Shown here: one piece after another, positions 9,624 through 37,035 of the stretch
How positions within the stretch are numbered: position 1 is the stretch's first letter
Layout of the letters: each line of letters begins with the position of its first letter
Source of the DNA: Methylothermaceae bacterium
GTDB taxonomy: Bacteria > Pseudomonadota > Gammaproteobacteria > Methylococcales > Methylothermaceae
Reading direction: 5' to 3'
Assembly: GCA_026981855.1 (NCBI GenBank)
Contig: JALSIB010000055.1
Span: forward strand, 1 to 37,225
DNA length: 37,225 nt
Position numbers and translations under genes: made by a program
The notes under the pieces: model-generated
Seen by the model: only the letters and a program-made list of their open reading frames with translations
Database searches by the model: none
Told to the model about the DNA's origin: nothing

Positions 9624-9700
9624 GGCTACGTAGCTCAGCTGGTTAGAGCACAGCACTCATAATGCTGGGGTCGGTGGTTCAAGTCCACCCGTAGCCACCA
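9624..9700 (+). tRNA. tRNA-Met (CAT), elongator type
   Basis: A 77-nt tRNA with encoded CCA. The acceptor stem GGCTACG pairs with CGTAGCC (9690-9696). The D-loop is AGCTCAGCTGGTTAGAGC, the anticodon arm CAGCACTCATAATGCTG shows CAT, and the T-arm GGTGGTTCAAGTCCACC is intact. The perfect 1-72 pair and close likeness to E. coli metT indicate the elongator, not the initiator, which has a C1-A72 mismatch. Confidence 0.97.
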
Positions 9701-9860: not shown

Positions 9861-10478
9861 ATGCGCACATTCGTAAGATTGATTCTCGCATTGTCATTTG
9901 GGGTTGCTTCACTGTCACCGGCATTCGCCGATGGGGGCGGAGGTGGCGGTGCGGCGACCGGATGTCGTCTTTCCGTTGGCCCCTTTACTTTGTTGTTTTC
10001 GGCTTATCAACCCCAACTGACCGCCGATGCCAAATACTGCACCGACATTCCCGGCCTGGGGCGGACCAACCTGGTGGTTGACTACGAAGCCAAGGAAGGT
10101 TCCACTTCCATCGGAAGCCAGAGACGTCTGGATCAGGAAATCAAGAAAATGAAGTTGGGCGTCAAGCTGATTCGTGAATCGGATGGCAAGGTGCTGGTGG
10201 AGGAGCCGCCCAAGGCTTTCCGTTCCGGTATCGTGGAAACCGTGGCCAATCTGGACCAGCCGGGTGCCTATGAATTCGAGGTCAAGCTGGTCGGCCCTGA
10301 CGGAAAAGAAATGGAAAACCACCTGGAATTGACCGTGGGCAAGGACAGTGGCGAGCAACTGAGAAACATGATCATCGCCTTTGTGGTTCTGTTTGCCGTC
10401 TTCTATCTGGCCTACCTGTCCCATGCGGGCTTCAGGCAGAAAGTGGATGCCTTTTTCGGCAAACTCAAGGAATTCTGA
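9861..10478 (+). CDS. Membrane-tethered periplasmic protein, first gene of copper-protein operon
   Basis: A 205-residue protein of unknown family. It has a Sec signal peptide (MRTFVRLILALSFGVASLSPAFA), a Gly-rich linker, a periplasmic domain of about 140 residues with two cysteines (GCRLS, KYCTD) that could form a disulfide, and a C-terminal transmembrane helix at about residues 172-192 followed by a basic cytoplasmic tail. The middle looks beta-rich (QPGAYEFEVKLVGPDGKE resembles an Ig-like or FixG/CopC-like fold), but I cannot place it. GGAGGAGCT before ATG 9861 sets the start. It is 43 bp ahead of the multicopper oxidase gene; the three genes share a strand and a terminator, implying a common function. 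Confidence 0.8.
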   Translation: MRTFVRLILALSFGVASLSPAFADGGGGGGAATGCRLSVGPFTLLFSAYQPQLTADAKYCTDIPGLGRTNLVVDYEAKEGSTSIGSQRRLDQEIKKMKLGVKLIRESDGKVLVEEPPKAFRSGIVETVANLDQPGAYEFEVKLVGPDGKEMENHLELTVGKDSGEQLRNMIIAFVVLFAVFYLAYLSHAGFRQKVDAFFGKLKEF

Positions 10479-10521
10479 TTGATCCCGAGTCGATAAAATA
10501 AAGTTAAATCAAAAAGCAACG

Positions 10522-12255
10522 ATGCAGCAACGCAAAGCTTATATGACGGGCGGGACAGGTCTTCTTGTCCTGCTTCTGTCTTTTGGGGTGGCGGCGGATG
10601 TGCCGCCATCTTCTTCTGTCAAGAGGGGATCCGCGCCGCAGGTGGAGCCTTTTTGTCCCAAGGAACGCCCTGTCAAGTGGCGTGACGAACAACGAGTGGA
10701 CGGGGTGGAGATCCAGGAGGAACGGACCTGCCTGCCTGACAATCCCTACGACATCGCCGCTTTCGTCAAGGGTACGAACAACATTTCCATGCCTACCCTG
10801 ATGAAGACCAGGCTGGCCGCCGATGCGGTGATCAAGCGCAACGACCGGGACGGCGACGGAGACCCCGACGAGATCATCATCAAGCTTGAAGTTGCTGAAT
10901 TGAATGGCGCCTCTCCCGATACCACCGAACCGGTGCATACTTTCGCCCCCGCCCCGGGCATCCGGCCGGCGTTCTGGGTGTTCGTTCCCAAGACCCGGGG
11001 TATGGCCACCAAGGATGAACACAGTACCGAGGCCAATCCCTTGCTTCGGACCCCTTCACCGGTCATTCGGGTGGAACAGGGGGACACGGTCAAGATTGTT
11101 TTGGAAAATACCCATTATTTTCCCCATACCATCCATTTGCACGGGGTCGATCATCCCTTCGTCGATGCCAGGGGGGAGGGAAACGACGGGGTGCCGCAAA
11201 CCAGTGAGGATTTCGTTCTGCCGGGGGGCAAGCGGGTCTATGACATCCAGCCGCGCCAGCCCGGAACCATGATCTATCATTGCCACGTTCAAACCCACAC
11301 CCATTTGGCGATGGGGCTGATCGGCATGTTCGTGGTGGAGGAAAACCGACCCAACAACTGGGTGCAGACTTTCAATATCGGTGCCGGCAAGGTTCGCCAT
11401 CCTTCCCGGGCCGTTCGGGAAGAATACGACCAGGAATACGACCTGCACTATCAGGCCGTGGACAAAGAGTTGCACCGGATCGTGCAGTCGTCCAACGATC
11501 CTCGCGTGATTGCCAAACGCATGAACCGGGAATACGATCTCACCGACGCCACGGAAGACTATTTTCTGCTCAACGGCCGCTCGTTTCCCTATACCCTGAG
11601 AGAATCCCTGTTGATCGTGGAGCCGGACCAGAATGTGAAACTGCGGATCCTCAATGCGCAGGGGGAGATGCTGGCGGTGCATACCCATGGACACAAGGCG
11701 ACCATCACCCATTATGACGGCATAGAGCAGAATCCCATGGCGCAGATCACCCGGGACGTGTTCGATCTGGCCCCTGCCCAAAGGCTCGATCTCAAACTCG
11801 AAACCACCAATGACGGGCTGCACAACTATGGCCCTGGCGTCTGGGTGTTCCACGATCATGTGGAAAGAGGCATCACCACCGATGGCATGAATCCGGGTGG
11901 CAACATCAGCGCGGTGGTCTACAAGTCCTTCCTGGATGCCAACGATGTGCCCAAGGTTCAGGGAATCGATCTGGCGCGCTATTTCACCCGGGAGTTCCAT
12001 CAGCGGAAACTGCCGGTGTGGCAGAACCTGGATGAATGGGACAGTCTCGGCGAGCCGGAAACCGAAGCCCCGGAAGCCGTGGCTGGAGAGGCCGAAGAAG
12101 TGCATGCGGAAGAGAAAACAGTGGCCGAACCTGCCAAGACTCCTTGGCGAAACCTGCTGATCGGGCTGCTGCTCGGGCTTTTGGCGTATATTCTTTTTGC
12201 CAACCGTCAGCGTGGCAGAGAACTGTTTTGCCAGTACGTATTGGGGAAGGGATAA
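10522..12255 (+). CDS. Two-domain multicopper oxidase with C-terminal membrane anchor
   Basis: A 577-residue exported protein: signal peptide (about 1-26), then cupredoxin domain 1 with FPHTIHLHG (near residue 200) and YHCHVQTHTHLAMGL (near 252), then domain 2 with VHTHGHKAT (near 386) and VFHDHVERGITTDGM (near 443). It ends in an acidic linker (about 510-535) and a hydrophobic helix LLIGLLLGLLAYILFA. The His-X-His pairs fit the trinuclear copper cluster. The only Cys-His...Met type-1 site is in domain 1, since the matching Cys in domain 2 is Asp (HDH). That fits two-domain multicopper oxidases or NirK-like proteins rather than three-domain laccases/CopA. The substrate is unknown. It stops 1 bp before the cupredoxin gene. 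Confidence 0.85.
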   Translation: MQQRKAYMTGGTGLLVLLLSFGVAADVPPSSSVKRGSAPQVEPFCPKERPVKWRDEQRVDGVEIQEERTCLPDNPYDIAAFVKGTNNISMPTLMKTRLAADAVIKRNDRDGDGDPDEIIIKLEVAELNGASPDTTEPVHTFAPAPGIRPAFWVFVPKTRGMATKDEHSTEANPLLRTPSPVIRVEQGDTVKIVLENTHYFPHTIHLHGVDHPFVDARGEGNDGVPQTSEDFVLPGGKRVYDIQPRQPGTMIYHCHVQTHTHLAMGLIGMFVVEENRPNNWVQTFNIGAGKVRHPSRAVREEYDQEYDLHYQAVDKELHRIVQSSNDPRVIAKRMNREYDLTDATEDYFLLNGRSFPYTLRESLLIVEPDQNVKLRILNAQGEMLAVHTHGHKATITHYDGIEQNPMAQITRDVFDLAPAQRLDLKLETTNDGLHNYGPGVWVFHDHVERGITTDGMNPGGNISAVVYKSFLDANDVPKVQGIDLARYFTREFHQRKLPVWQNLDEWDSLGEPETEAPEAVAGEAEEVHAEEKTVAEPAKTPWRNLLIGLLLGLLAYILFANRQRGRELFCQYVLGKG

Positions 12256-12256
12256 G

Positions 12257-13120
12257 ATGAACAAACTGCGCAATCTCGTATTGGCCCTTGCCGGGCTGGC
12301 GGTGGTGTCCTTTCAGGTGCAGGCGGCCAGGATGCCGATGATGAACCATGGGCGGATGCTCATGGACATGAGCGGCAAAATGGTCATGGGGCAGAATACC
12401 GACCAATTGCCCGAAGGTTGCCGGAGGATTTCCGAGGACGTCGAGATCATCGTCGGCGCGGGCCACAAATATTCCCGCCCCTATCCCGGAACGATGTTCG
12501 GATACAGCGAGCATCAATGGCAAGTCAAACCCTGCGCGCGGGTCACGGTCACACTGAAAAACGATGATCAGATCCGGCATCAGTGGATGTTGCACGGCTT
12601 GCCGGAAGACCTCTATCCAAAAGGGATGTTCCATATCGAGGTGACCGGGCCGGGGGAAGTGACCGGAACTTTCATCGTTCCCCGGGAGGACAAGACCTAT
12701 CTGGTCCATTGCGATATCGCCCAACACACGGAGAAAGGGATGAAAGCCCAATTGGTGGTGGGCAAGGGCAGTGGTACGCTTCCCGGGATTCCGGGTATAT
12801 CGGAGCCTGTGGTCAAGTATCTCCAGCAGCCGACAGCCGAGGGGGAGAAGCAGACCTCCGTGATTGTCGTGAAGGCGCCTGAACCCAGCGGGCAAAAAGA
12901 AGAACCCTCCATGCTTTCGGGTATGCTGATTCTCGGGCTGGTCATCGCCATTCTGGGTGCCCCCTATCTGTTGCGCTGGCTGGGAAGCCGCTTTTTCGGC
13001 ATGTCGGGAAAGGCGTTGAGCGGCTATCTGTTCGACCGCTTGATGGCGGTCTTCTGTCTGTTCTTCCGCTTGTTCATGGCGGTTTGGGACTGGTTCCGGC
13101 CCCGGCAGCGTTCAGTCTGA
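12257..13120 (+). CDS. Membrane-tethered cupredoxin
   Basis: A 287-residue protein with a signal peptide (MNKLRNLVLALAGLAVVSFQVQA), a Met-rich segment (MPMMNHGRMLMDMSGKMVMG, possible copper-binding), and a cupredoxin fold. The type-1 ligands are His in RHQWMLHG (about residue 108) and Cys, His, Met in VHCDIAQHTEKGM (about 150-163). A linker and a hydrophobic helix (about 217-235) plus a second hydrophobic stretch near the C-terminus (about 255-278) anchor it in the inner membrane. It follows the oxidase gene immediately, so it may pass electrons to or from the oxidase. The family resembles plastocyanin/azurin-like proteins but not a named one. Confidence 0.83.
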   Translation: MNKLRNLVLALAGLAVVSFQVQAARMPMMNHGRMLMDMSGKMVMGQNTDQLPEGCRRISEDVEIIVGAGHKYSRPYPGTMFGYSEHQWQVKPCARVTVTLKNDDQIRHQWMLHGLPEDLYPKGMFHIEVTGPGEVTGTFIVPREDKTYLVHCDIAQHTEKGMKAQLVVGKGSGTLPGIPGISEPVVKYLQQPTAEGEKQTSVIVVKAPEPSGQKEEPSMLSGMLILGLVIAILGAPYLLRWLGSRFFGMSGKALSGYLFDRLMAVFCLFFRLFMAVWDWFRPRQRSV

Positions 13121-13144: not shown

Positions 13145-13173
13145 AAAAAGCCCTCCCTTCGGGAGGGCTTTTT
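13145..13173. terminator. Strong bidirectional Rho-independent terminator
   Basis: A 13-bp perfect stem (AAAAAGCCCTCCC / GGGAGGGCTTTTT) with a 3-nt loop, carrying A-tract and T-tract ends, lies 24 bp after the cupredoxin stop. It ends the copper-protein operon and separates it from the next gene. Confidence 0.93.
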
Positions 13174-13191: not shown

Positions 13192-13611
13192 ATGGACTAT
13201 TCCCTCGGTGCGCTTTTTCTCAGTGCCTTCGTTTCCTCCACTCTGGCGCCTGGCGGCTCCGAAGCGCTGCTGGCATGGCTGCTCGCCAAGGCGCAACAGC
13301 CTGCGTGGCAGTTGTGGCTCAGCGCCACCTTGGGCAATACTTTGGGGGCGATGACGACTTGGGGAGTGGGTATCCTGATGGCGTGGGGATGGTCATTCGG
13401 GCGCTGGAAAATCGGCAATGTATCGGTACGAACCGTGCGGTGGCTGCGTCGATTCGGGCTCCCGCTCCTGCTTTTGTCGTGGCTGCCGGTGGTAGGGGAT
13501 GGTTTTTGTCTGGCGGCCGGCTGGTTGCGTCTGCCCTGGCTGCCGGGGCTGGCGATGATCGCCTTGGGCAAGGGATTGCGCTATGGCGCTTTGGTCTGGT
13601 GGTTGGGATGA
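13192..13611 (+). CDS. YqaA/DedA-type (VTT) small membrane protein
   Basis: A 139-residue polytopic membrane protein. The N-terminal LGALFLSAFVSSTLAPGGSE, the GNTLGAMTTWGVG helix, the RFGLPLLLLSWLPVVGDGF stretch and a C-terminal hydrophobic helix match the YqaA subgroup of DedA/SNARE-associated proteins, where the Pro-Val-X-Gly-Asp segment is conserved. DedA relatives act in lipid carrier recycling; the role of YqaA is not established. ATG 13192 comes 18 bp after the terminator with no clear Shine-Dalgarno, so its promoter must lie within or upstream of the terminator, or expression is weak. Confidence 0.82.
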   Translation: MDYSLGALFLSAFVSSTLAPGGSEALLAWLLAKAQQPAWQLWLSATLGNTLGAMTTWGVGILMAWGWSFGRWKIGNVSVRTVRWLRRFGLPLLLLSWLPVVGDGFCLAAGWLRLPWLPGLAMIALGKGLRYGALVWWLG

Positions 13612-13675: not shown

Positions 13676-14974
13676 TCAACGATACAACGCATAGGCGCCA
13701 AAGCGCATCTGGTGAGGGCGCCCCAATTTCCGGGCGATGAAATCCACCTGGAACAAGGGGCTCAGATCCTTGCCATTCCAGGCAAAAGCCTTGACGTACT
13801 GCTCGTTGTCCTTACCCTTCTTGTCCCACTTGGAAAGCAGCGAGGAGCTGAAATAGACCCGCTTTCCGTCCCAGCTCTGGGAAACCATGTTGACCTGGGC
13901 GCCGATCTTTTTGCTATAGACCTCTCGGGGTTTGAATGGGTTGGAGATGTCGAACAGGCGGGCCTTGCCGTCCATGAAGGTGGTGACCCACAATTTTTGG
14001 TCGTCGCTTTCAATCGAGATGTCCACCGGTAGCAGGGTCTTCTGCGGATCGCCGATATCGGCGACCGGCTTGGCCTGCCATTTCCCTGTGTCATCCAGAT
14101 GGATCAACCAGATCTTTGCGGTCAGTGCGGTGCTGGTGAAACAGTAATTGTGGTTCGGATTCCAGGCGCAGCGGATTTCCAAAGGCGATCCTGGAACGTC
14201 GAAGACCAGTTTGGGTTTTCTGTCTTCCAGATCCCACAGCACCATGGTATTGCCGAAGTCCTGCATCGCCTGGGGATCCTGCATCAATTCCCCCAGATCG
14301 CGCATGTAGTTGCGGTGGCCTGTGAAAGAGGAGGTCAGCATGATTCCGAGGCGTGGCAGGGCGCGCACGTCGTATCCATAGCCGTCGGCGAATTTGCCGC
14401 TCTTGACGGCGCCGCGCAGGTCGTCATCGGTTGGCATCCAGTAGGTGGCGACATATTCCCCCTCGTTGGTGTATTCCACCAGCGCGGTGCGGCCGCCGTA
14501 GTCCTTGTTGTTGGACAGGCCGCTGATGATCATCCTGTCAGGGAGCGCATAGGTGGTGTGAGGGCCCACCACGCCGCCGCTCTTGGTGACGAAATCATCG
14601 ATCACCTTGATCAGTTTGGGTTTGGCTGGGTCGGTGTGAACGTCGAAGATGAAAATCTTGCTGCTGTCCAGGCCGCCAGCCCAAAGATATTTACGGTCGT
14701 CGGTGAAGCCGGAGTGATGGGCTTCGTGACGGCCACCCACCGAGATGCTGTGGATCACCTTGCCATAGGTGGCCGATTTCGGATTGGCGTCGATGGTGAC
14801 CAGCTTGTCGGAGCCGTCCCCCAGACCCTCCATGCCCAAGGTCCAGACATAGATGAAATCCTCCTGACCGACGATTTTCTGCATGTAAGGGGATAAAGGT
14901 GTCTCATCCGCTTTCAGATGAAAGGGGACGATGACCGTCAAAGTGATCATCATTAAACAGATTTTTCTTATCAT
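13676..14974 (-). CDS. Periplasmic SBP56 / methanethiol oxidase family protein
   Basis: A 432-residue protein with a signal peptide (MIRKICLMMITLTVIVPFHLKA) and a beta-propeller-like body resembling selenium-binding protein 56, the family of bacterial methanethiol oxidase (methanethiol to formaldehyde, H2S and H2O2). Seen: GGRHEAHHSGF with clustered His, GGLDSSKIFIFDV, PHTTYALPDRMIISGLSNN, SFTGHRNYM and a final RPHQMRFG. The CXXC of eukaryotic SBP56 is absent, so this is a divergent member and the substrate is uncertain. The start at 14974 is supported by GAGG six bases upstream; the frame extends further but without signal character. It lies 89 bp downstream of the DUF4242 gene on the same strand. 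Confidence 0.72.
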   Translation of the reverse strand: MIRKICLMMITLTVIVPFHLKADETPLSPYMQKIVGQEDFIYVWTLGMEGLGDGSDKLVTIDANPKSATYGKVIHSISVGGRHEAHHSGFTDDRKYLWAGGLDSSKIFIFDVHTDPAKPKLIKVIDDFVTKSGGVVGPHTTYALPDRMIISGLSNNKDYGGRTALVEYTNEGEYVATYWMPTDDDLRGAVKSGKFADGYGYDVRALPRLGIMLTSSFTGHRNYMRDLGELMQDPQAMQDFGNTMVLWDLEDRKPKLVFDVPGSPLEIRCAWNPNHNYCFTSTALTAKIWLIHLDDTGKWQAKPVADIGDPQKTLLPVDISIESDDQKLWVTTFMDGKARLFDISNPFKPREVYSKKIGAQVNMVSQSWDGKRVYFSSSLLSKWDKKGKDNEQYVKAFAWNGKDLSPLFQVDFIARKLGRPHQMRFGAYALYR

Positions 14975-15063
14975 TACATTCCTCTTCGCTTGAGGTGGGG
15001 GCCTGGCTCCCACACAAATTTTTATTTTGGTGCCGAAGCGTCGGCAGATATGGTGAAAATGAT

Positions 15064-16130: not shown

Positions 16131-16913
16131 TCAATCCTCGGCGGCCGCCCGTATCCACTCCGGCGCTGTCAAAGGGCCTTTCAATTTCCTGCCCAGGTTT
16201 TTCAGGCGTTGCCCTTGACGGATGATGAAAGCCGCTCCTCCGATCGCCACGGCATCCACCAGACAATACCATGTGGCGACTCCGCTGGGAGGATTGCCTT
16301 GGGAAAGTGAGAAGGTGGGATCGATCGGGGCCCAGGCCCAGGTATTGAGTGCGGTGCCGATCAGTTCCAGGTGGGTGGTGATGAAGAACGCCGCCAGATA
16401 GACGAGGGGATTGCGTCCCCACAGAACGCAGGGAACATAGATCAAAAACAGAATCATGCCGAGCCAGTCGCTGCGCCCTGCAAGGGTCACTCCCCAAAGT
16501 GACCACAATCCCATGGATATCAGCACCAACCATGTGATTTGGCGCTGGTACGACCGGAACAAGGGGGAGCGGGCGAGGGCGACCGCCGTGAGGTAGACCA
16601 TTCCATGGCCCGGTGGAATATAGGCGGGGATATTGTGGAAATAGTAGATGTAGCCTTGCATCATACCCGATGCGAAGTGTTCTCCTGCGGTGGCGAACAG
16701 GATCGCGACCAGAACCTGAAGGCGCACCAGATTCGATTCCCGCAGCAATAATCCGGCCAGGACCACCCAGCCACATTGGCCAACGGCCTTTTGCAGCCCC
16801 AGATCATGGAAAGAGTCGACATAGAGGCACAACGCGATACCGAGAAAAGTGACAGCGGCTATGAACAGCTCTCTGGAGCTGGCTTTGATGATCCGGAGGG
16901 TCTGTATCGCCAT
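16131..16913 (-). CDS. Unknown polytopic membrane protein
   Basis: A 260-residue protein with about seven hydrophobic segments (near residues 15-32, 42-57, 64-82, 100-115, 125-145, 148-185, 208-225) and few polar loops. Notable residues are GEHFASGMMQGYIYYFHNIPAY and HGMVYLTAVAL, where His and aromatic residues cluster near membrane edges. No family recognised. It lies upstream of tetR on the same strand with a 93-bp gap that contains the tetR promoter, so it is a separate unit. No clear ribosome binding site is seen before the ATG. Confidence 0.7.
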   Translation of the reverse strand: MAIQTLRIIKASSRELFIAAVTFLGIALCLYVDSFHDLGLQKAVGQCGWVVLAGLLLRESNLVRLQVLVAILFATAGEHFASGMMQGYIYYFHNIPAYIPPGHGMVYLTAVALARSPLFRSYQRQITWLVLISMGLWSLWGVTLAGRSDWLGMILFLIYVPCVLWGRNPLVYLAAFFITTHLELIGTALNTWAWAPIDPTFSLSQGNPPSGVATWYCLVDAVAIGGAAFIIRQGQRLKNLGRKLKGPLTAPEWIRAAAED

Positions 16914-23674: not shown

Positions 23675-24967
23675 ATGAATAAACAACACGGATTTTTTTT
23701 CGTGCCGGCGGGGCTTGGCGTTTTCTCGCCGGCCGCTCTGGCAGGACAGCTGAACGGGGCCGATACCGCCTGGGTCTTGACTTCCACCGCCCTGGTGCTT
23801 TTCATGACATTGCCCGGTCTGGCGCTTTTCTACGGGGGGCTGGTCAGGGTCAGAAACGTTCTCTCCATCCTGATGCAGTGCTTTGTGATCGCCGCGGTCG
23901 TTTCGTTGCTTTGGCTGGTCGCGGGCTACAGTCTGGCTTTCGGCGATGGGGCGGCGGTTCAGCCGTGGATCGGAGGACTGGAGCGGGTACTGGTTTGGGG
24001 AATGGGGCCCGACGGTCTTTCGGGCAGTATTCCTGAAGTGGTGTTTCTGGCTTTTCAGATGACTTTCGCCATCATCACCCCGGCTTTGATCATCGGTGGT
24101 TTCGCCGAGAGAATGCGCTTTTCCGCCATGTTGTGGTTCAGTGCCTTGTGGCTGCTGCTGGTCTATGTTCCAGTCTGTCACTGGGTGTGGGGGGGTGGCT
24201 GGCTGGCCGATCTTGGCGTGATGGATTTTGCCGGCGGGATCGTGGTGCATTTGACCTGTGGCGTGGCGGCCTTGGTGGCGGCCCTGGTCTTGGGACCCAG
24301 AAAGGGATTTCCCAAAGTACCGATGCCGCCTCACAACATGACCATGACGGTCACCGGTGCCGGAATGCTCTGGGTGGGGTGGTATGGCTTCAACGGCGGC
24401 AGCGCCCTGGCGGCCGATGGGGGTGCGGGAATGGCGCTTTTCGTGACCCACATCGCGGCATCGGCCGGTGTGCTGACCTGGATGGCCATCGAATGGGTGC
24501 GTTTTGGCAAGCCCAGCGTTCTGGGCGCCGTGACCGGTATGGTGGCGGGGCTCGGAACCGTCACTCCGGCTTCGGGTTTTATCGGTCCTGCCGGGGCATT
24601 GGGGCTCGGCATTCTGGCAGGCGGCATTTGTTTCACCGCCACTCAGATCATCAAACGGGTGCTGAAAATAGACGATTCGCTGGACGTGTTTCCGGTCCAT
24701 GGAGTGGGGGGGATTCTGGGATCGCTGCTGACGGCGGTGCTGGCCAGTGAGACGTTGGGCGGTTTTGGTTTGGCGGAAGGGGTGACCGTGCTCGGCCAGT
24801 TGGGGGTTCAGGCCATCGCGGTGATCAGCGTGGGGTTATGGTGTGGGCTCATCACCTTCGGCCTGCTGAAAGGGCTTGACCTGTTGATCGGAATCCGTGT
24901 CAGTCCGGAAGTGGAAACCGAAGGGCTGGATATCTCCCAGCACGAGGAGACAGGTTACCATTGGTGA
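23675..24967 (+). CDS. amtB: Ammonium transporter AmtB
   Basis: A 430-residue ammonium channel. A cleavable signal-like N-terminus (FFFVPAGLGVFSPAALA) is followed by 11 hydrophobic helices. Seen are ALFYGGLVRVRN, FGGFAER-type IIGGFAERMRFSAM, the first conserved pore His in CHWVWGGGW, VHLTCGVAALVAAL, the cytoplasmic loop PHNMTMTVTGAGMLWVGWYGFN and the second pore His in VHGVGGILGSLL. It works in a trimer regulated by GlnK. A hairpin lies just after the stop. Confidence 0.96.
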   Translation: MNKQHGFFFVPAGLGVFSPAALAGQLNGADTAWVLTSTALVLFMTLPGLALFYGGLVRVRNVLSILMQCFVIAAVVSLLWLVAGYSLAFGDGAAVQPWIGGLERVLVWGMGPDGLSGSIPEVVFLAFQMTFAIITPALIIGGFAERMRFSAMLWFSALWLLLVYVPVCHWVWGGGWLADLGVMDFAGGIVVHLTCGVAALVAALVLGPRKGFPKVPMPPHNMTMTVTGAGMLWVGWYGFNGGSALAADGGAGMALFVTHIAASAGVLTWMAIEWVRFGKPSVLGAVTGMVAGLGTVTPASGFIGPAGALGLGILAGGICFTATQIIKRVLKIDDSLDVFPVHGVGGILGSLLTAVLASETLGGFGLAEGVTVLGQLGVQAIAVISVGLWCGLITFGLLKGLDLLIGIRVSPEVETEGLDISQHEETGYHW

Positions 24968-27067: not shown

Positions 27068-27262
27068 ATGGCAGATAAATCTCCCGTCAGAATCGATCGC
27101 CGAGGATTTTTCGGCAAGCTGTTCGCCGTGTCCACCGCGGCCTCCGCCTTGACGCTGGCGCGGCCTGGCGATGTCCGGGCGAAGGTGTCCCGATCCCCGA
27201 AGACAGGCGGTTACCGGGAGAGCGACCATATCCGCCGTTACTACCGCAGCGCCCGGGGGTAA
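27068..27262 (+). CDS. Formate dehydrogenase region Tat-target small protein
   Basis: A 64-residue protein with a twin-arginine signal (RIDRRGFFGKLFAV) and the C-terminal motif GYRESDHIRRYYRSARG. This is the pattern of the small Tat-target protein found next to formate dehydrogenase genes in proteobacteria. Function is unproven; it may accompany or help assembly or export of the enzyme. It is 2 bp ahead of fdhA and clearly cotranscribed. The start is MADKSPVRIDRRGF; an earlier in-frame ATG lacks support. Confidence 0.88.
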   Translation: MADKSPVRIDRRGFFGKLFAVSTAASALTLARPGDVRAKVSRSPKTGGYRESDHIRRYYRSARG

Positions 27263-27264
27263 GC

Positions 27265-30126
27265 ATGAAACTGATCAGACGCCCACTGCCGCAGGATGAC
27301 GGCCAGGGAATGGATCGCCGCACCTTCCTCAAGGGCTCCGGCGCGGCCGTTGGCAGCTCCGTCCTGGCCGGGAGCCTTTCCTTCAGGATGATTCGCCGGG
27401 CCGAGGCCCACGAAGGGCACGATCACGGGGACGAGGTGCGCCAGATCAAGACCGTTTGCACCCATTGCTCGGTGGGTTGCGGGGTGATCGCCGAAGTCAG
27501 AAACGGCGTTTGGATGGGGCAGGAGCCGGCGTTCGATCATCCCTTCAACCTGGGCGCCCATTGCGCCAAGGGGGCGTCGGTGCGGGAACACGGCCGTGGC
27601 GACAAGCGCCTCAAATATCCGCTGAAGAAAATCGATGGTCGGTGGCGGCGGATCAGCTGGGAGCAGGCGATCGAGGAGATCGGGGCGAAACTGCTGACCC
27701 TCCGCGAACAGTCGGGGCCGGATTCCGTATACTGGCTGGGTTCCTCCAAGCACAACAACGAACAGGCGTATCTGCTGCGCAAGTTCGTCGCCCTGTGGGG
27801 CACCAACAACGTCGATCATCAGGCCAGGATCTGCCATTCCACCACCGTTGCCGGGGTTGCCAACACCTGGGGCTACGGGGCGATGACCAACTCCTACAAC
27901 GACATTCACAACAGCCGCGCGATTCTGATCATCGGCGGCAATCCGGCCGAAGCCCATCCGGTTTCGATGCAGCACATCTTCCGCGCCAAGGAAAAGGGCG
28001 CCCGTCTGATTGTGGTCGATCCCCGTTTCACCCGCACCGCCGCCCACGCCGATCAGTACGTCCGCATCCGCCCCGGTGGCGACATCCCTTTCGTCTACGG
28101 CCTGTTGTGGCACATTTTCGAGAACGGCTGGGAGAACCGGGAATTCATCAAACAGCGGGTCTACGGCATGGACGCCATACGCGCGGAGACGAAGAAGTGG
28201 CCGCCCGAGGAAGTGGAGCGGGTGTGCGGGGTGCCGCGGGATCAAGTGTTCCAGGTCGCCAGAACCCTGGCCGAGCACCGTCCCGGGACCGTGGTCTGGT
28301 GCATGGGCATCACCCAGCACCACCACGGCAACAACCAGACCCGGCTGCTGTGCATCCTGCAGCTGGCCCTGGGCAACATGGGGGTGGCCGGCGGCGGCAC
28401 CAACATCTTCCGCGGCCACGACAACGTCCAGGGGGCCACCGACGTGGGGCCCAACGCCCACACCCTGCCGGGCTATTACGGCTTGAGCGAAGAGGCGTGG
28501 CGCCACTGGGCCCGGGTATGGGATGTGGATTACGATTGGCTTTCGGCCCGTTTCGACCCGGCGGAATACGACGACGGCAAGGGGGGGAAAGCCAGAACCA
28601 TGTTCCAGGCGGGTATTCCGGTGTCGCGCTGGATCGACGGGGTGCTGGAGGACAAGGCCAACCTGTCCCAGAAGGACAACATCCGCGCCATGATCTTCTG
28701 GGGGCACGCCCCCAACAGCCAGACCCGGGGGCTGGAGATGAAACGGGCCTTCGAGAAGCTGGATCTTCTGGTGGTCATCGACCCTTACCCCACGGTGTCG
28801 GCGGTGATGCACGAGCGGCGCGACGACACCTACCTGCTGCCCGCCTGCACCCAGTTCGAGACCCGCGGCTCGGTGACCGCCTCCAACCGTTCGGTGCAGT
28901 GGCGCAACCGGGTGATCGAGCCCCTGTTCGAGTCCCAGCCCGACCACGTCACCATGTATCAGCTGGCGAAGAAGCTGGGTTTCGCCGCCGAGCTGACCAA
29001 ACACATCCGGGTCGAGGAGGACGAGCCTGTCATCGAGGACATCCTGCGGGAGATCAACCGCGGCACTTGGACCATCGGTTACAGCGGTCACAGTCCCGAG
29101 CGGTTGAAGCGCCAGCAGGAAAACTGGCACACCTTCGACACCACCACCCTCAAGGCCGAGGGCGGTCCCTGCGACGGCGAATACTACGGTCTTCCCTGGC
29201 CGTGTTGGGGCACGCCGGAGCTGGGACATCCGGGTACGCCCATCCTCTACGATTTGTCCAAACCGGTGGCCGGGGGCGGGCTGCCGTTCCGGGCCCGTTT
29301 CGGCGTCGAGCGTGACGGTGTCAGTCTTCTGGCCGAAGGCAGCTACACCCGGGACTCGGAGATCAAAGACGGCTACCCCGAGTTTTCCGACGCGCTGCTC
29401 AAGAAACTGGGCTGGTGGGACGATCTCACCCCGGTGGAGAAGCAGGCCGCGGAAGGCCGCAACTGGAAGACCGACCTTTCCGGCGGTATCCAGCGGGTGG
29501 CGATCGCTCACGGTTGCGCCCCCTTTGGCAACGCCAAGGCCCGCTGTGTCGTCTGGACCTTTCCCGATCCCGTGCCGGTCCACCGCGAGCCGATTTACAG
29601 CAACCGGCGTGATCTGGTGGAGCGGTACCCCACTTACGCCGATCGCGGGCGCTTCTTCCGCCTCCCCACCCGCTACGCCTCGTTGCAGCAAATCGATTTC
29701 AGCCACAGGTTCCCCCTGGTGATGACTTCCGGCAGGCTGGTGGAGTACGAAGGAGGTGGTGCCGAAACCCGTTCCAATCCCTGGCTCGCGGAACTGCAGC
29801 AGGAAATGTTCGTGGAGGTGCACCCGGCCGACGCCAACGACGCTGGTCTGCGCCACGGCGGCAAGGTCTGGGTCGAGGGGCCGGAAGGCGGGCGGATCCT
29901 GGTGACCTGCTTCGTCACCCGTCGGGTGCCGAGGGGCACGGTGTTCATGCCGTTCCATTTCGGTGGCCGGTGGCAGGGGGAGGATCTGCAGGACCGTTAT
30001 CCCGAAGGGACCGCTCCCTATGTGCGCGGGGAATCGTGTAACGTGGTATTCACTTACGGTTATGATTCGGTCACCATGATGCAGGAAACCAAAGTATCGT
30101 TGTGCCGGCTGAAACGGGAGGGATGA
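27265..30126 (+). CDS. fdhA: Formate dehydrogenase catalytic (alpha) subunit, periplasmic, Cys-type
   Basis: A 953-residue molybdopterin (bis-MGD) oxidoreductase oxidising formate to CO2 in the periplasm. Features: Tat signal at residues 17-22 (DRRTFL), His-rich HEGHDHGDE, a [4Fe-4S] site with Cys65, Cys68, Cys72 and Cys100, and Mo/W ligand Cys190 followed by His191 (ARICHST), so no selenocysteine is needed. Further landmarks are IIGGNPAEAHPVSMQHIFRA, GITQHHHGNNQTR, GNMGVAGGGTNIFRGHDNVQG and the C-terminal cofactor-binding domain (FPLVMTSGRLVEYEGGG, EVHPADAND). Together with the 4Fe-4S and cytochrome b subunits it forms a membrane-bound quinone-reducing complex. The very long antisense frame is a codon-bias shadow. 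Confidence 0.95.
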   Translation: MKLIRRPLPQDDGQGMDRRTFLKGSGAAVGSSVLAGSLSFRMIRRAEAHEGHDHGDEVRQIKTVCTHCSVGCGVIAEVRNGVWMGQEPAFDHPFNLGAHCAKGASVREHGRGDKRLKYPLKKIDGRWRRISWEQAIEEIGAKLLTLREQSGPDSVYWLGSSKHNNEQAYLLRKFVALWGTNNVDHQARICHSTTVAGVANTWGYGAMTNSYNDIHNSRAILIIGGNPAEAHPVSMQHIFRAKEKGARLIVVDPRFTRTAAHADQYVRIRPGGDIPFVYGLLWHIFENGWENREFIKQRVYGMDAIRAETKKWPPEEVERVCGVPRDQVFQVARTLAEHRPGTVVWCMGITQHHHGNNQTRLLCILQLALGNMGVAGGGTNIFRGHDNVQGATDVGPNAHTLPGYYGLSEEAWRHWARVWDVDYDWLSARFDPAEYDDGKGGKARTMFQAGIPVSRWIDGVLEDKANLSQKDNIRAMIFWGHAPNSQTRGLEMKRAFEKLDLLVVIDPYPTVSAVMHERRDDTYLLPACTQFETRGSVTASNRSVQWRNRVIEPLFESQPDHVTMYQLAKKLGFAAELTKHIRVEEDEPVIEDILREINRGTWTIGYSGHSPERLKRQQENWHTFDTTTLKAEGGPCDGEYYGLPWPCWGTPELGHPGTPILYDLSKPVAGGGLPFRARFGVERDGVSLLAEGSYTRDSEIKDGYPEFSDALLKKLGWWDDLTPVEKQAAEGRNWKTDLSGGIQRVAIAHGCAPFGNAKARCVVWTFPDPVPVHREPIYSNRRDLVERYPTYADRGRFFRLPTRYASLQQIDFSHRFPLVMTSGRLVEYEGGGAETRSNPWLAELQQEMFVEVHPADANDAGLRHGGKVWVEGPEGGRILVTCFVTRRVPRGTVFMPFHFGGRWQGEDLQDRYPEGTAPYVRGESCNVVFTYGYDSVTMMQETKVSLCRLKREG

Positions 30127-30244
30127 ACATGCGATCGGTAACCATGCCGGGAAAAGGTGAGGGGGATGCCGGGAATCTGTCCCCCCGCGCCCGAAACCCC
30201 GCCATTGTTTCCCTGGCGTGCCACGAGACGGAATGGAGCCCGAC

Positions 30245-30859
30245 ATGGCGCGAATGAAATTTCTCTGTGACGATGAGCGCTGCATCGAATGCAATGCCTG
30301 CGTGACCGCCTGCAAGAATGAAAACGACGTGCCGTGGGGCGTGAATCGCCGCCGGGTGGTGACCTTGAACGACGGCCAGCCAGGGGAGAAATCCATCTCG
30401 GTGGCCTGCATGCACTGCACCGATCCGCCTTGCGCCGCGGTGTGTCCCGTGGATTGTTTCTATATCACCGAAGATGGCGTGGTCTTGCACGACAAGGACT
30501 TGTGTATCGGTTGCGGATACTGTTTCTATGCCTGCCCCTTCGGAGCGCCGCAGTTTCCCCAGGACGGGGCTTTCGGCGCCCGGGGGAAGATGGACAAATG
30601 CACTTTCTGCGCCGGGGGACCGGAGGAGGATCTGTCCGAGGCGGAATTCGAAAAATACGGCCGCAACCGCCTGGCCGAAGGAAAGCTCCCCCTGTGCGCC
30701 GAAATGTGTTCCACCAAGGCGCTGCTGGCGGGGGACGGCGACATCATTGCCGACATCTTCCGGGAGCGGGTGGTGCGCCGGGCCGGTCGGGACGATGACA
30801 GAAAGCCGCCGGCCTCCCCCTGGGGCTGGGGCCAGGCCTATGGAGGGAAAAAGCCGTGA
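30245..30859 (+). CDS. fdhB: Formate dehydrogenase iron-sulfur (beta) subunit
   Basis: A 204-residue ferredoxin-like subunit with four 4Fe-4S motifs: CDDERCIECNACVTACK, CMHCTDPPCAAVCPVDC, CIGCGYCFYACPFG and the C-terminal CTFCAGG...CAEMCSTKALL. It relays electrons from the catalytic subunit to the haem subunit. ATG 30245 (MARMKFLCDDERC) follows GGAG at good spacing; the frame opens nine codons earlier. It overlaps the small lipoprotein gene by 4 bp (GTGA). Confidence 0.95.
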   Translation: MARMKFLCDDERCIECNACVTACKNENDVPWGVNRRRVVTLNDGQPGEKSISVACMHCTDPPCAAVCPVDCFYITEDGVVLHDKDLCIGCGYCFYACPFGAPQFPQDGAFGARGKMDKCTFCAGGPEEDLSEAEFEKYGRNRLAEGKLPLCAEMCSTKALLAGDGDIIADIFRERVVRRAGRDDDRKPPASPWGWGQAYGGKKP

Positions 30860-35466: not shown

Positions 35467-37035
35467 ATGAGTAATCCAATTACTATACGCAAGCTAATAG
35501 ACCGCATCACATCTGGTGATATTCGAATACCTGCCTTCCAGAGGGACTTTGTGTGGGAGCCTGAGCAGGTGGCTTTTCTCTTAGATAGTATATACAAAGA
35601 ATTTCCTATCGGAACAGTAATTCTATGGAAAACGGATACTCGGCTAAGCACAGAAAAAAGGCTTGGGTTATTTGATCTGCCTGAGCCACATAAAGATTAC
35701 CCTGTAAACTACGTTTTAGACGGACAGCAACGTCTAACTGCATTATTTAGTGTATTCCAAACAGAGCTGGATCCAATATCTGACGAATGGGTTGATATAT
35801 ATTTTGATATGTATGCCGAGGAAAATATGCAGGAATCGTTGTTTTTGGCGCTAGATAAATCTGAAGTCGATCCGTTGCGTCATTTTCCCGTTAATACTCT
35901 TTTTGACCCGGTTTCTTATCGGGCGGCTACCAATAAGCTAGATGATGAAATTATATTGAAACTCGATAACCTTCAATCAAGGTTTAAAGAATATCTGATT
36001 CCTAATGAAGTTTTTGAGTCGGAAGATAGAAATAAAGTGGCTATTGTGTTCGAGAGAATTAATCGAGCAGGAACAGAATTAGATGTATTCGAGCTTCTTT
36101 CTGCTTGGAGCTGGTCTGATGATTTTGACCTAGTAGAAAAATTTCGGATGCTTCAAGAGTCGATCGCGGAACATAACTTCGCTGATTTAATTGATGATAA
36201 AGACCTTCAACTCAGAATTTGCGCCGGTGTTATTTCTGGAGAGACAACGCCGCAAGTTATTATGGCTCTTCAGGGAGAAGAGATACGCTTGAATTTCTCA
36301 AAAATAGAGAAAGGTATCTTGGGGGCTTTGGATTTCCTAAAACGCGAAGCAAATGTTAAGCATTATAAGATGCTGCCTTTCCCTGGGCTGCTTGTGCCTT
36401 TATCTGTGTTTTTCGCAACGGACAGTGAGGATGGATTCCGGTATACGTCAAAGCAACGTGACAAGATTCTTAGATGGTTTTGGAGGTCGCTGTTTACTCG
36501 CCGGTTTTCCGCGGGCGTAAATAGGAGACAACGGGAGGATATTGCTGAGTTGTTAAAACTAAAAAATAATGAAGATTATGATATGAAGCTGCCTGAAGCA
36601 GATGTGCGCATAGATTTTAAGCAGAGTCCGTTTTCTAGTGGCAGTGCAAATGGTCGGGTGATGATTTTGCTTTTAAACTCAACGATGCCGCACTCGCTTT
36701 TAAGTGGTGCAAAAATTGATCTTGATAATGTTTTGAAGAAAGGTAGTAAGCATGAATACCATCACATATTCCCGCAGAAATATCTAGAAAGGTTGGGATT
36801 TGATAGAAAACAGGCAAACGTCCTTGCAAACATCTGTTTCTTAACAAGGAGCGACAATAACAATATTAAAGATAAGGCTCCATATGAATATGTTGCAAGT
36901 ATACCAGATGAAGTGAGGGTTGAATATCTTGCAAGTGCGCTATGTCCGGAAAATATTGCAGAACTAGATTATCCAGAATTCTTAAAGGTTAGATCCGAAA
37001 TAATAGAAAGACGAGCGAAGGAGCTTATGGCATAA
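35467..37035 (+). CDS. DUF262 / HNH protein, GmrSD-like putative anti-phage nuclease
   Basis: A 522-residue protein. The N-terminal DUF262 (GmrS-like, ParB-type NTPase) domain has IRIPAFQRDFVWEPEQ, PIGTVILW and the DGQQRLTALF motif (about residues 90-100), then VFERINRAGTELDVFELLSA. The C-terminal third has an HNH-like region YHHIFPQKYLERLG with ANICFLTRSDNNNIKDKAP. This combination in one chain occurs in type IV modification-dependent restriction systems related to GmrSD, so a phage defence role is likely but unproven here. ATG 35467 lacks a clear ribosome binding site. The stop lies inside the R'' core of attC 4. Confidence 0.85.
   Translation: MSNPITIRKLIDRITSGDIRIPAFQRDFVWEPEQVAFLLDSIYKEFPIGTVILWKTDTRLSTEKRLGLFDLPEPHKDYPVNYVLDGQQRLTALFSVFQTELDPISDEWVDIYFDMYAEENMQESLFLALDKSEVDPLRHFPVNTLFDPVSYRAATNKLDDEIILKLDNLQSRFKEYLIPNEVFESEDRNKVAIVFERINRAGTELDVFELLSAWSWSDDFDLVEKFRMLQESIAEHNFADLIDDKDLQLRICAGVISGETTPQVIMALQGEEIRLNFSKIEKGILGALDFLKREANVKHYKMLPFPGLLVPLSVFFATDSEDGFRYTSKQRDKILRWFWRSLFTRRFSAGVNRRQREDIAELLKLKNNEDYDMKLPEADVRIDFKQSPFSSGSANGRVMILLLNSTMPHSLLSGAKIDLDNVLKKGSKHEYHHIFPQKYLERLGFDRKQANVLANICFLTRSDNNNIKDKAPYEYVASIPDEVRVEYLASALCPENIAELDYPEFLKVRSEIIERRAKELMA

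Follow-up and report, generated by a model that had tools for sequence, protein, structure and literature searches.

The DNA analysed here (the window) is a stretch of 37,225 nucleotides from a Methylothermaceae bacterium (assembly GCA_026981855.1, contig JALSIB010000055.1, positions 1 to 37,225). At positions 9861-13120 it carries three genes that belong to a real, conserved copper-protein module of gamma-proteobacterial bacteria with copper membrane monooxygenases (CuMMO, i.e. the particulate methane monooxygenase, pMMO, and its relatives). The module is made from known protein families: a PmoD/AmoD-family protein, a two-domain multicopper oxidase (MCO) and a membrane-anchored cupredoxin. 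In the order of the host, the three families occur together in 57 of 61 genomes, as a full same-strand cluster in 44, and in several lineages the cluster is joined to the pmo genes.

The window makes up contig C55 of a genome of 2.75 Mb with 99% completeness. The three open reading frames (ORFs) lie on the forward (+) strand, with gaps of 43 nt between genes 1 and 2 and 1 nt between genes 2 and 3. By hydropathy, each product has an N-terminal hydrophobic, signal-like segment and a C-terminal membrane segment. The hairpin that follows gene 3 has a predicted folding energy of -22 kcal/mol, and a shorter stem of it is listed separately. An operon of this extent, with 1-43 bp spacing, a terminator, and a signal peptide and C-terminal anchor on every product, had been put forward in an original prediction made from the letters of the window alone, and this architecture is confirmed. 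The features are as follows.

9861-10478, + strand: PmoD/AmoD-family protein, 205 aa (profile match to 6CPD; signal peptide, C35, C60, C-terminal transmembrane segment 165-191)
10522-12255, + strand: two-domain MCO, 577 aa, with an N-terminal extension and a C-terminal transmembrane anchor at 541-563 (Pfam Cu-oxidase_2/3; hydropathy)
10843-10869, + strand: calcium-loop-like DxDGDGDPD, MCO residues 108-116 (five Asp kept in 105 of 105 aligned rows)
11125-11313, + strand: MCO domain 1 ligands, type-1 H202, C254, H261 and M264, trinuclear H205, H207, H253 and H255
11680-11859, + strand: MCO domain 2 trinuclear ligands H387, H389, H444 and H446
12257-13120, + strand: membrane-anchored type-1 cupredoxin, 287 aa (Pfam Cu-oxidase_2; model pLDDT 84.9; cupredoxin fold Z 11.6)
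12326-12394, + strand: Met/His-rich segment, cupredoxin residues 24-46, 9 of 23 residues Met or His
12578-12742, + strand: cupredoxin type-1 ligands H108, C152, H157 and M162
13145-13173 (approximate), + strand: intrinsic terminator-like hairpin (by folding)

Conservation was assessed in 61 genomes of the order of the window (Methylococcales by record names). Strong MCO matches were found in 58 of them (60 at the search threshold, two of which show general MCO similarity only), gene 1 in 57 and the cupredoxin in 58. The recurrence of the same-strand trio in 44 genomes makes its linkage more than chance, and the independent scatter of homologues that the original prediction had named as contrary evidence was not found, the pmoD-cupredoxin pair standing apart from any MCO in 12 genomes. 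Eleven of these 12 are among the 14 genomes that have an MCO and no full trio. One further genome (G017) has the MCO, at a contig start, and the cupredoxin, with no match to gene 1, and three (G025, G034 and G055) lack all three families and also PF02461 (AmoA/PmoA), the marker used for CuMMO. Cluster and distance counts in the order rest on 82 MCO, 70 gene-1, 82 cupredoxin and 22 PF02461 places with hand-transcribed coordinates; they omit the MCO fragments G011:C221, G040:C12:437616 and G004:C170, distant MCO matches below 60 bits, weaker second copies of gene 1, and three weak or partial cupredoxin rows. Many genomes, that of the window included (G000:C54), possess a second copy limited to MCO and cupredoxin. 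The contig of that second pair also encodes a NirK above its cut-off (329 of 296 bits; L169, 7929-9152).

The same arrangements recur among 80 named MCO loci: 35 pmoD-MCO-cupredoxin, 26 MCO-cupredoxin, one pmoD-MCO at a contig end and 18 MCO alone. All Nitrosomonas-named loci are of the MCO-cupredoxin type without an adjacent pmoD. In a quick tree made without bootstrap and carrying a long-branch warning, the Nitrosomonas MCOs form a clade (support 100) inside those of Methylococcales, and G162, a Nitrosomonas-like genome, groups with them. This nesting suggests that the Nitrosomonas MCO was acquired by transfer. The alignment and tree comprise MCOs of at least 520 aa from loci outside L013-L052 (114 rows, 105 after duplicate removal), including the fused protein of G443 and the degenerate protein of G001, both described below. 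Conservation as a unit, which the original prediction proposed to examine in methanotrophs and nitrifiers, is seen in gamma-proteobacterial methanotroph relatives; the Nitrosomonas loci have the pair without adjacent pmoD, and other genera of that family lack the MCO.

A link with CuMMO is suggested by co-occurrence and, in some lineages, by physical linkage. Within the order, PF02461 was detected in 50 of 61 genomes, all of which have the MCO. In one genus (g6, presumably Cycloclasticus) 11 of 14 genomes have both MCO and PF02461 and the other 3 have neither (exact p 0.0027, relatedness being ignored). In 11 of 61 genomes the MCO gene and pmoA share a strand and are no more than 9 kb apart; the remaining PF02461 places, compared by eye, include none within 9 kb of an MCO. 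Three loci (L054, L055 and L056) read pmoC-pmoA-pmoB-pmoD-MCO-cupredoxin-VTT in the direction of transcription, where VTT denotes a small membrane protein gene discussed below. The order is MCO-cupredoxin-VTT-260aa-pmoC-pmoA-pmoB in L057 and pmoD-MCO-cupredoxin-VTT-260aa-pmoC-pmoA, followed by the contig end, in L058. The module also adjoins pmo genes in three named records. Two of these (L136 and L148) read pmoA-pmoB-pmoD-MCO-cupredoxin, with pmoB in two ORFs in L136. The third (L146), a Binatia metagenome-assembled genome (MAG), reads pmoD-pmoC-pmoA-orf-pmoB-pmoD-MCO-cupredoxin, followed by a pyrroloquinoline quinone (PQQ) alcohol dehydrogenase gene (594 of 480 bits). In the phylum of the Binatia genome G575, MCO (846 bits) and PF02461 were each found in 1 of 247 genomes, the same one, which is the chosen centre of the sample; from G632 came no more than a 99-bit piece. 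A role confined to methane was dropped, as ammonia oxidisers of the genus Nitrosomonas carry the MCO-cupredoxin pair.

By profile similarity, gene 1 is a member of the PmoD/AmoD family, and not the unknown protein that it was originally taken for. A 25-sequence profile (A3) matched PmoD (6cpd_A) in the PDB with an E value of 3.2e-22, the sole match up to 0.1; the single sequence reached PmoD only at E 0.55, and Pfam and NCBIfam searches of gene 1 gave no match. C35 and C60 are invariant in 20 of 20 aligned rows. A CuA site in the window protein was considered and rejected: the Met/His ligands of the Cx7MxHxnC motif are absent from the corresponding segment (CRLSVGPFTLLF), and the Cx7MxH set was seen in no trio-linked PmoD of the alignments examined. 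In most trio-linked relatives a His stands ten or eleven residues past the first Cys, and the pmoCAB-linked copies are of the Cx8M form in L054 and L055 and of the Cx8MH form in L056. These motif statements rest on alignments; a motif script gave a rough picture, with signal-peptide cysteines mislabelling several rows. According to the available part of PMC6189053, Cx8M and Cx9H representatives bind copper without a CuA site, and PmoDs of the Cx8MxnC type are commonly encoded near multicopper oxidase genes.

The MCO ligands were assigned by alignment to 3G5W and 2ZWN, the basis being the site roles that we take these two structures to have. As originally described, this is a two-domain oxidase with its sole type-1 site in domain 1 (H202, C254, H261, M264). 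All twelve copper ligands are kept in 103 of 105 aligned rows; the exceptions are Methylococcus capsulatus Texas, with Leu in place of M264, and G001, in which eleven ligands are lost. A calcium-binding role for the DxDGDGDPD loop seems possible from its sequence. The closest solved relatives by sequence, 2zwn and 3g5w, are also the best fold matches of the predicted model (mean pLDDT 73): Z 25.5 for 3g5w and 25.3 for 2zwn, with root-mean-square deviations of 3.0 and 3.2 over 282 aligned residues. NirK chains follow in a near tie at Z ~24. In two-domain MCOs with the type-1 site in domain 1, the known assembly is trimeric, with trinuclear sites between subunits; the models made here are of monomers.

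Membership of a known oxidase family was examined with curated NCBIfam cut-offs. CopA (TIGR01480; 51 of 478.95 bits needed), CueO (NF008205; 37.1 of 525) and NirK (TIGR02376; 40.6 of 296.3) were all rejected, and laccase membership was likewise considered and dropped. The view that this is not a standard CopA/CueO system is thus borne out, and by these cut-offs the oxidase does not fall inside NirK or CopA, a placement that the original prediction had regarded as fatal to it. Closest among named records is a Methylothermaceae MAG (85% MCO identity), and most other close records are Methylococcales, so that the host is a relative of gamma-proteobacterial methanotrophs. Among plasmid records, no place covered 80% of the window MCO or of the G443 protein.

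The cupredoxin was correctly foreseen as Met-rich. Its type-1 ligands H108, C152, H157 and M162 are kept in 90, 89, 89 and 88 of 90 aligned rows, respectively. Met and His make up on average 30% of the N-terminal tail versus 9% of the core, and the tail is richer in them than the core in all 90 homologues compared (range 4-48%). Two hydrophobic stretches occur at the C-terminus (215-243 and 258-280 by hydropathy; helices 222-246 and 251-280 in the model). The assignment of the fold rests on the predicted model because the cupredoxin profile (A1) matched no solved chain at 0.001; the best fold matches, auracyanin, NirK domains and nitrosocyanin, are tied at Z 11.6 to 11.5.

The function that we favour, with confidence evenly divided, is that of a membrane-anchored periplasmic module which handles or oxidises Cu(I) in the service of CuMMO. 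Held on the periplasmic side of the membrane, the PmoD-like protein and the cupredoxin would bind copper, with Cu(I) going to the Met/His tail of the cupredoxin. The type-1 site of the MCO would accept electrons from Cu(I) or from reduced cupredoxin, and its trinuclear cluster, whose ligands are complete, is predicted to reduce O2 to water. Copper near pMMO could thereby be kept as Cu(II), which would limit Cu(I)/O2 damage and support the copper loading or upkeep of pMMO. A role in copper handling is suggested, with moderate confidence, by gene linkage, by the ligands and by one fusion. The latter is a single ORF of G443 (L163, 6093-8099) which joins an MCO (residues 46-419), a cupredoxin-family part (471-583, E 1.2e-26) and a CusF domain (Pfam, 4e-13), in a genome with no PF02461 match. 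The fusion implies that MCO and cupredoxin probably act together, and on copper.

Several observations weigh against a dedicated role in CuMMO function. Eight of the 11 genomes of the order without PF02461 have the MCO, among them that of the window, and no pmo genes occur in the locus of the window itself. Most of these eight assemblies are fragmented. Assemblies would often lose identical, multicopy pmoCAB, and this probably accounts for the misses. In 39 of the 50 genomes of the order that have PF02461, the module lies away from pmoA. Among genomes of the named loci, 30 of 50 had PF02461 and 20 gave no match; this comparison was dropped as a test, since the misses include M. capsulatus Texas, which we take to be a known pMMO organism, and such absences therefore say little. 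Moreover, the PmoD of the window has lost its Met/His ligands, and the fused G443 protein would suit general copper tolerance equally well.

Wider sampling adds to these points. Among 398 genomes sampled evenly across the phylum, two (G162 and G247) have PF02461 above its cut-off and three have the MCO (E<=1e-25, at which this query also gave matches in other sets of genomes): the genome of the window, G162, which has both, and G443, which has the MCO only. The family of G247, which belongs to another class of the phylum (probably the alpha-proteobacteria), has PF02461 in 4 of 80 genomes and the MCO, at this threshold, in 0 of 80. The module is hence not universally required by CuMMO, four genomes of this family having the monooxygenase without the MCO. 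In the Nitrosomonas-like family of G162, in which PF02461 was not searched, the MCO occurs in 65 of 120 genomes, all in one of four genera. Finally, PF02461 is retained in G001, where 11 of 12 copper ligands are gone from the only strong MCO and two from the cupredoxin.

Two loci of the order are altered. In G001 (L065, 5862-8693) the trio MCO lacks 11 of 12 ligands and the cupredoxin lacks C152 and H157; the frames are still open, the PmoD has retained its cysteines, and the two copper proteins are degenerate together. In G040 (L072, 4687-7637) the MCO is split over two ORFs and the PmoD ORF is short, the sole PF02461 match being on another contig; here the module may be decaying.

A possible but rather doubtful alternative assigns the module to electron transfer, with the cupredoxin linking the membrane pool to pMMO or to the MCO, and the MCO protecting or tuning the monooxygenase as a local oxidase or as a safety valve that reduces O2. 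The gene for a type-1 cupredoxin does stand beside that of an MCO with type-1 and trinuclear sites, each product has a membrane segment at its C-terminus, and the linkage to pmo genes and, in Binatia, to PQQ alcohol dehydrogenase fits such a scheme, as do the MCO-cupredoxin fusions in G443 and in the solved Nitrosopumilus maritimus MCO (9cck, by its title). However, the CusF fusion and the Met/His tail point to copper itself, and four CuMMO genomes do without the MCO.

It is unlikely that the genes form an operon for general copper tolerance, standing in for CueO and without a particular connection to CuMMO, in which case the co-occurrence would reflect high copper needs. The fused MCO-cupredoxin-CusF protein in a genome without a PF02461 match speaks for it, as does the lone MCO that adjoins a CueO-like MCO (266-270 of 525 bits, under cut-off) in two loci (L063 and L108). 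Physical linkage to pmo genes in several lineages, and the way the presence of the module tracks PF02461 within genus g6, argue against it. Similarly unlikely, finally, is an MCO oxidising hydroxylamine or nitric oxide formed by monooxygenase action on ammonia: the pair is retained in Nitrosomonas loci, the MCO is present in 65 genomes of the G162 family, 3g5w, a closest solved relative, is from Nitrosomonas europaea, and norC-like and norB-like genes (Pfam cytochrome c and COX1 only) adjoin the pair in G162, but a norC-like homologue was found in only 2 and a norB-like one in only 1 of 25 Nitrosomonas-type loci, within available flanks, other genera of the family lack the MCO, and the CusF fusion points elsewhere. 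Linkage to nor genes as a general feature was rejected (2 of 25 loci).

For many relatives, the original three-gene extent is too narrow. The trio is conserved as such; the CuMMO link and two further genes, which recur downstream of the cupredoxin in relatives, had been missed. Their copies in the window are the following.

13192-13611, + strand: small membrane protein of a VTT-domain (DedA-like) family, directly 3' of the cupredoxin in many relatives
16131-16913, - strand: polytopic membrane protein, 260 aa, without annotation, in several relatives just 3' of the VTT gene on the same strand

VTT_dom was detected in 16 of 18 homologues of the first ORF; the window copy itself gave no match. 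A homologue directly follows the cupredoxin in 26 of 41 trio loci, 4 of 4 pmoD-cupredoxin loci and 2 of 33 MCO-cupredoxin loci; trio loci were counted when at least 600 nt was available downstream, and these counts omit loci below L053 and 34 later ones, that of the window included. In the three types of locus, the 260-aa protein has homologues in 14 of 41, 4 of 4 and 1 of 33 cases, respectively; as a rule the gene comes immediately after the VTT gene and in the same orientation, but the window copy lies 3 kb away on the opposite strand. Pfam matched none of 18 homologues of the 260-aa protein; the family has strikingly conserved stretches (PxGHGxVYLTA and GNPPSGVAxWYCLVDA) and one weak plasmid match, from Legionella adelaidensis. 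The two genes separate the module from the pmo genes in L057 and L058. One may speculate that the PmoD-like, MCO, cupredoxin, VTT and 260-aa proteins form a dedicated copper-redox complex which docks with CuMMO, provides the copper state or the electrons missing from purified pMMO, and moves together with pmoCAB from one distant lineage to another. We consider this unlikely; if true, the complex would be one of the missing activity factors of pMMO.

Parts of this picture are already published. PmoD-MCO adjacency is described in PMC6189053, as far as that source was available, and in the accessible part of PMC6688271 the M. capsulatus pmoD homologue MCA2130 is said to adjoin an MCO gene and, citing earlier work, to be down-regulated without copper, while in Methylacidiphilum Kam1 pmoD adjoins an MCO gene. 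For Binatota, the CuMMO gene order and pmoD are described in the portion of PMC8262859 at hand, in which the word 'multicopper' was not found. No description of the whole three-gene module was found in the open-access literature, within the text accessible; the supplementary figures of PMC6189053, with 20 operon groups, may show part of it. The trio is not described in the accessible parts of PMC10176486, PMC13003922, PMC13374858, PMC9038741, PMC517821, PMC9600857, PMC12510462 and PMC10030591, and in that of the M. capsulatus transcriptome PMC4831470 the numbers 2129, 2130 and 2131 were not found and 2128 appeared once, its context not identified. The notion of an undescribed system may thus hold for the module as a whole, and fails for the PmoD family and its adjacency to the MCO. 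According to the part of PMC6189053 available, pMMO activity falls 10- to 100-fold on isolation, and proteins as yet unidentified are suspected to serve its copper loading or electron delivery. With its presence in almost every genome sampled from the order, and its attachment to pmo genes in several lineages, the trio offers a concrete candidate for a pMMO helper.

The window has other features as well. A tRNA-Met gene (CAT; 9624-9700) lies immediately 5' of the operon. A methanethiol oxidase MtoX (13676-15013) exceeds its NCBIfam cut-off (735 of 650 bits), and an MtoX homologue accompanies the trio in four loci of one group (L065 and L073-L075). Further along are an ammonium transporter (23675-24967, Pfam), at 27241-30420 a 1059-aa minus-strand ORF, with no Pfam match at 1e-5, overlapping a 953-aa plus-strand ORF, and a GmrSD-type restriction protein (35467-37035, Pfam).

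The individual proteins resemble known systems in part. Like PmoD/AmoD (6CPD), gene 1 has a signal peptide, a CxnC pair and a C-terminal transmembrane segment; unlike the PmoD with a CuA site, the window copy is without the Cx7MxH set and is partnered with an MCO and a cupredoxin. The MCO shares its ligand pattern and fold with the N. europaea blue copper oxidase 3G5W and the metagenome laccase 2ZWN. However, identity to these is 26-27%, and the window MCO family adds an N-terminal extension of ~170 residues, which contains an invariant DxDxDxDxD loop, and a C-terminal transmembrane segment. The N. maritimus MCO 9CCK likewise combines an MCO core (Z 23.0 over 258 residues) with a cupredoxin partner, here encoded by a separate gene; in contrast, that protein is archaeal and a single chain, with 19% identity. 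With the copper-resistance oxidases CopA and CueO, the window MCO has in common the MCO fold and a presumed copper context, although it falls far under their curated cut-offs.

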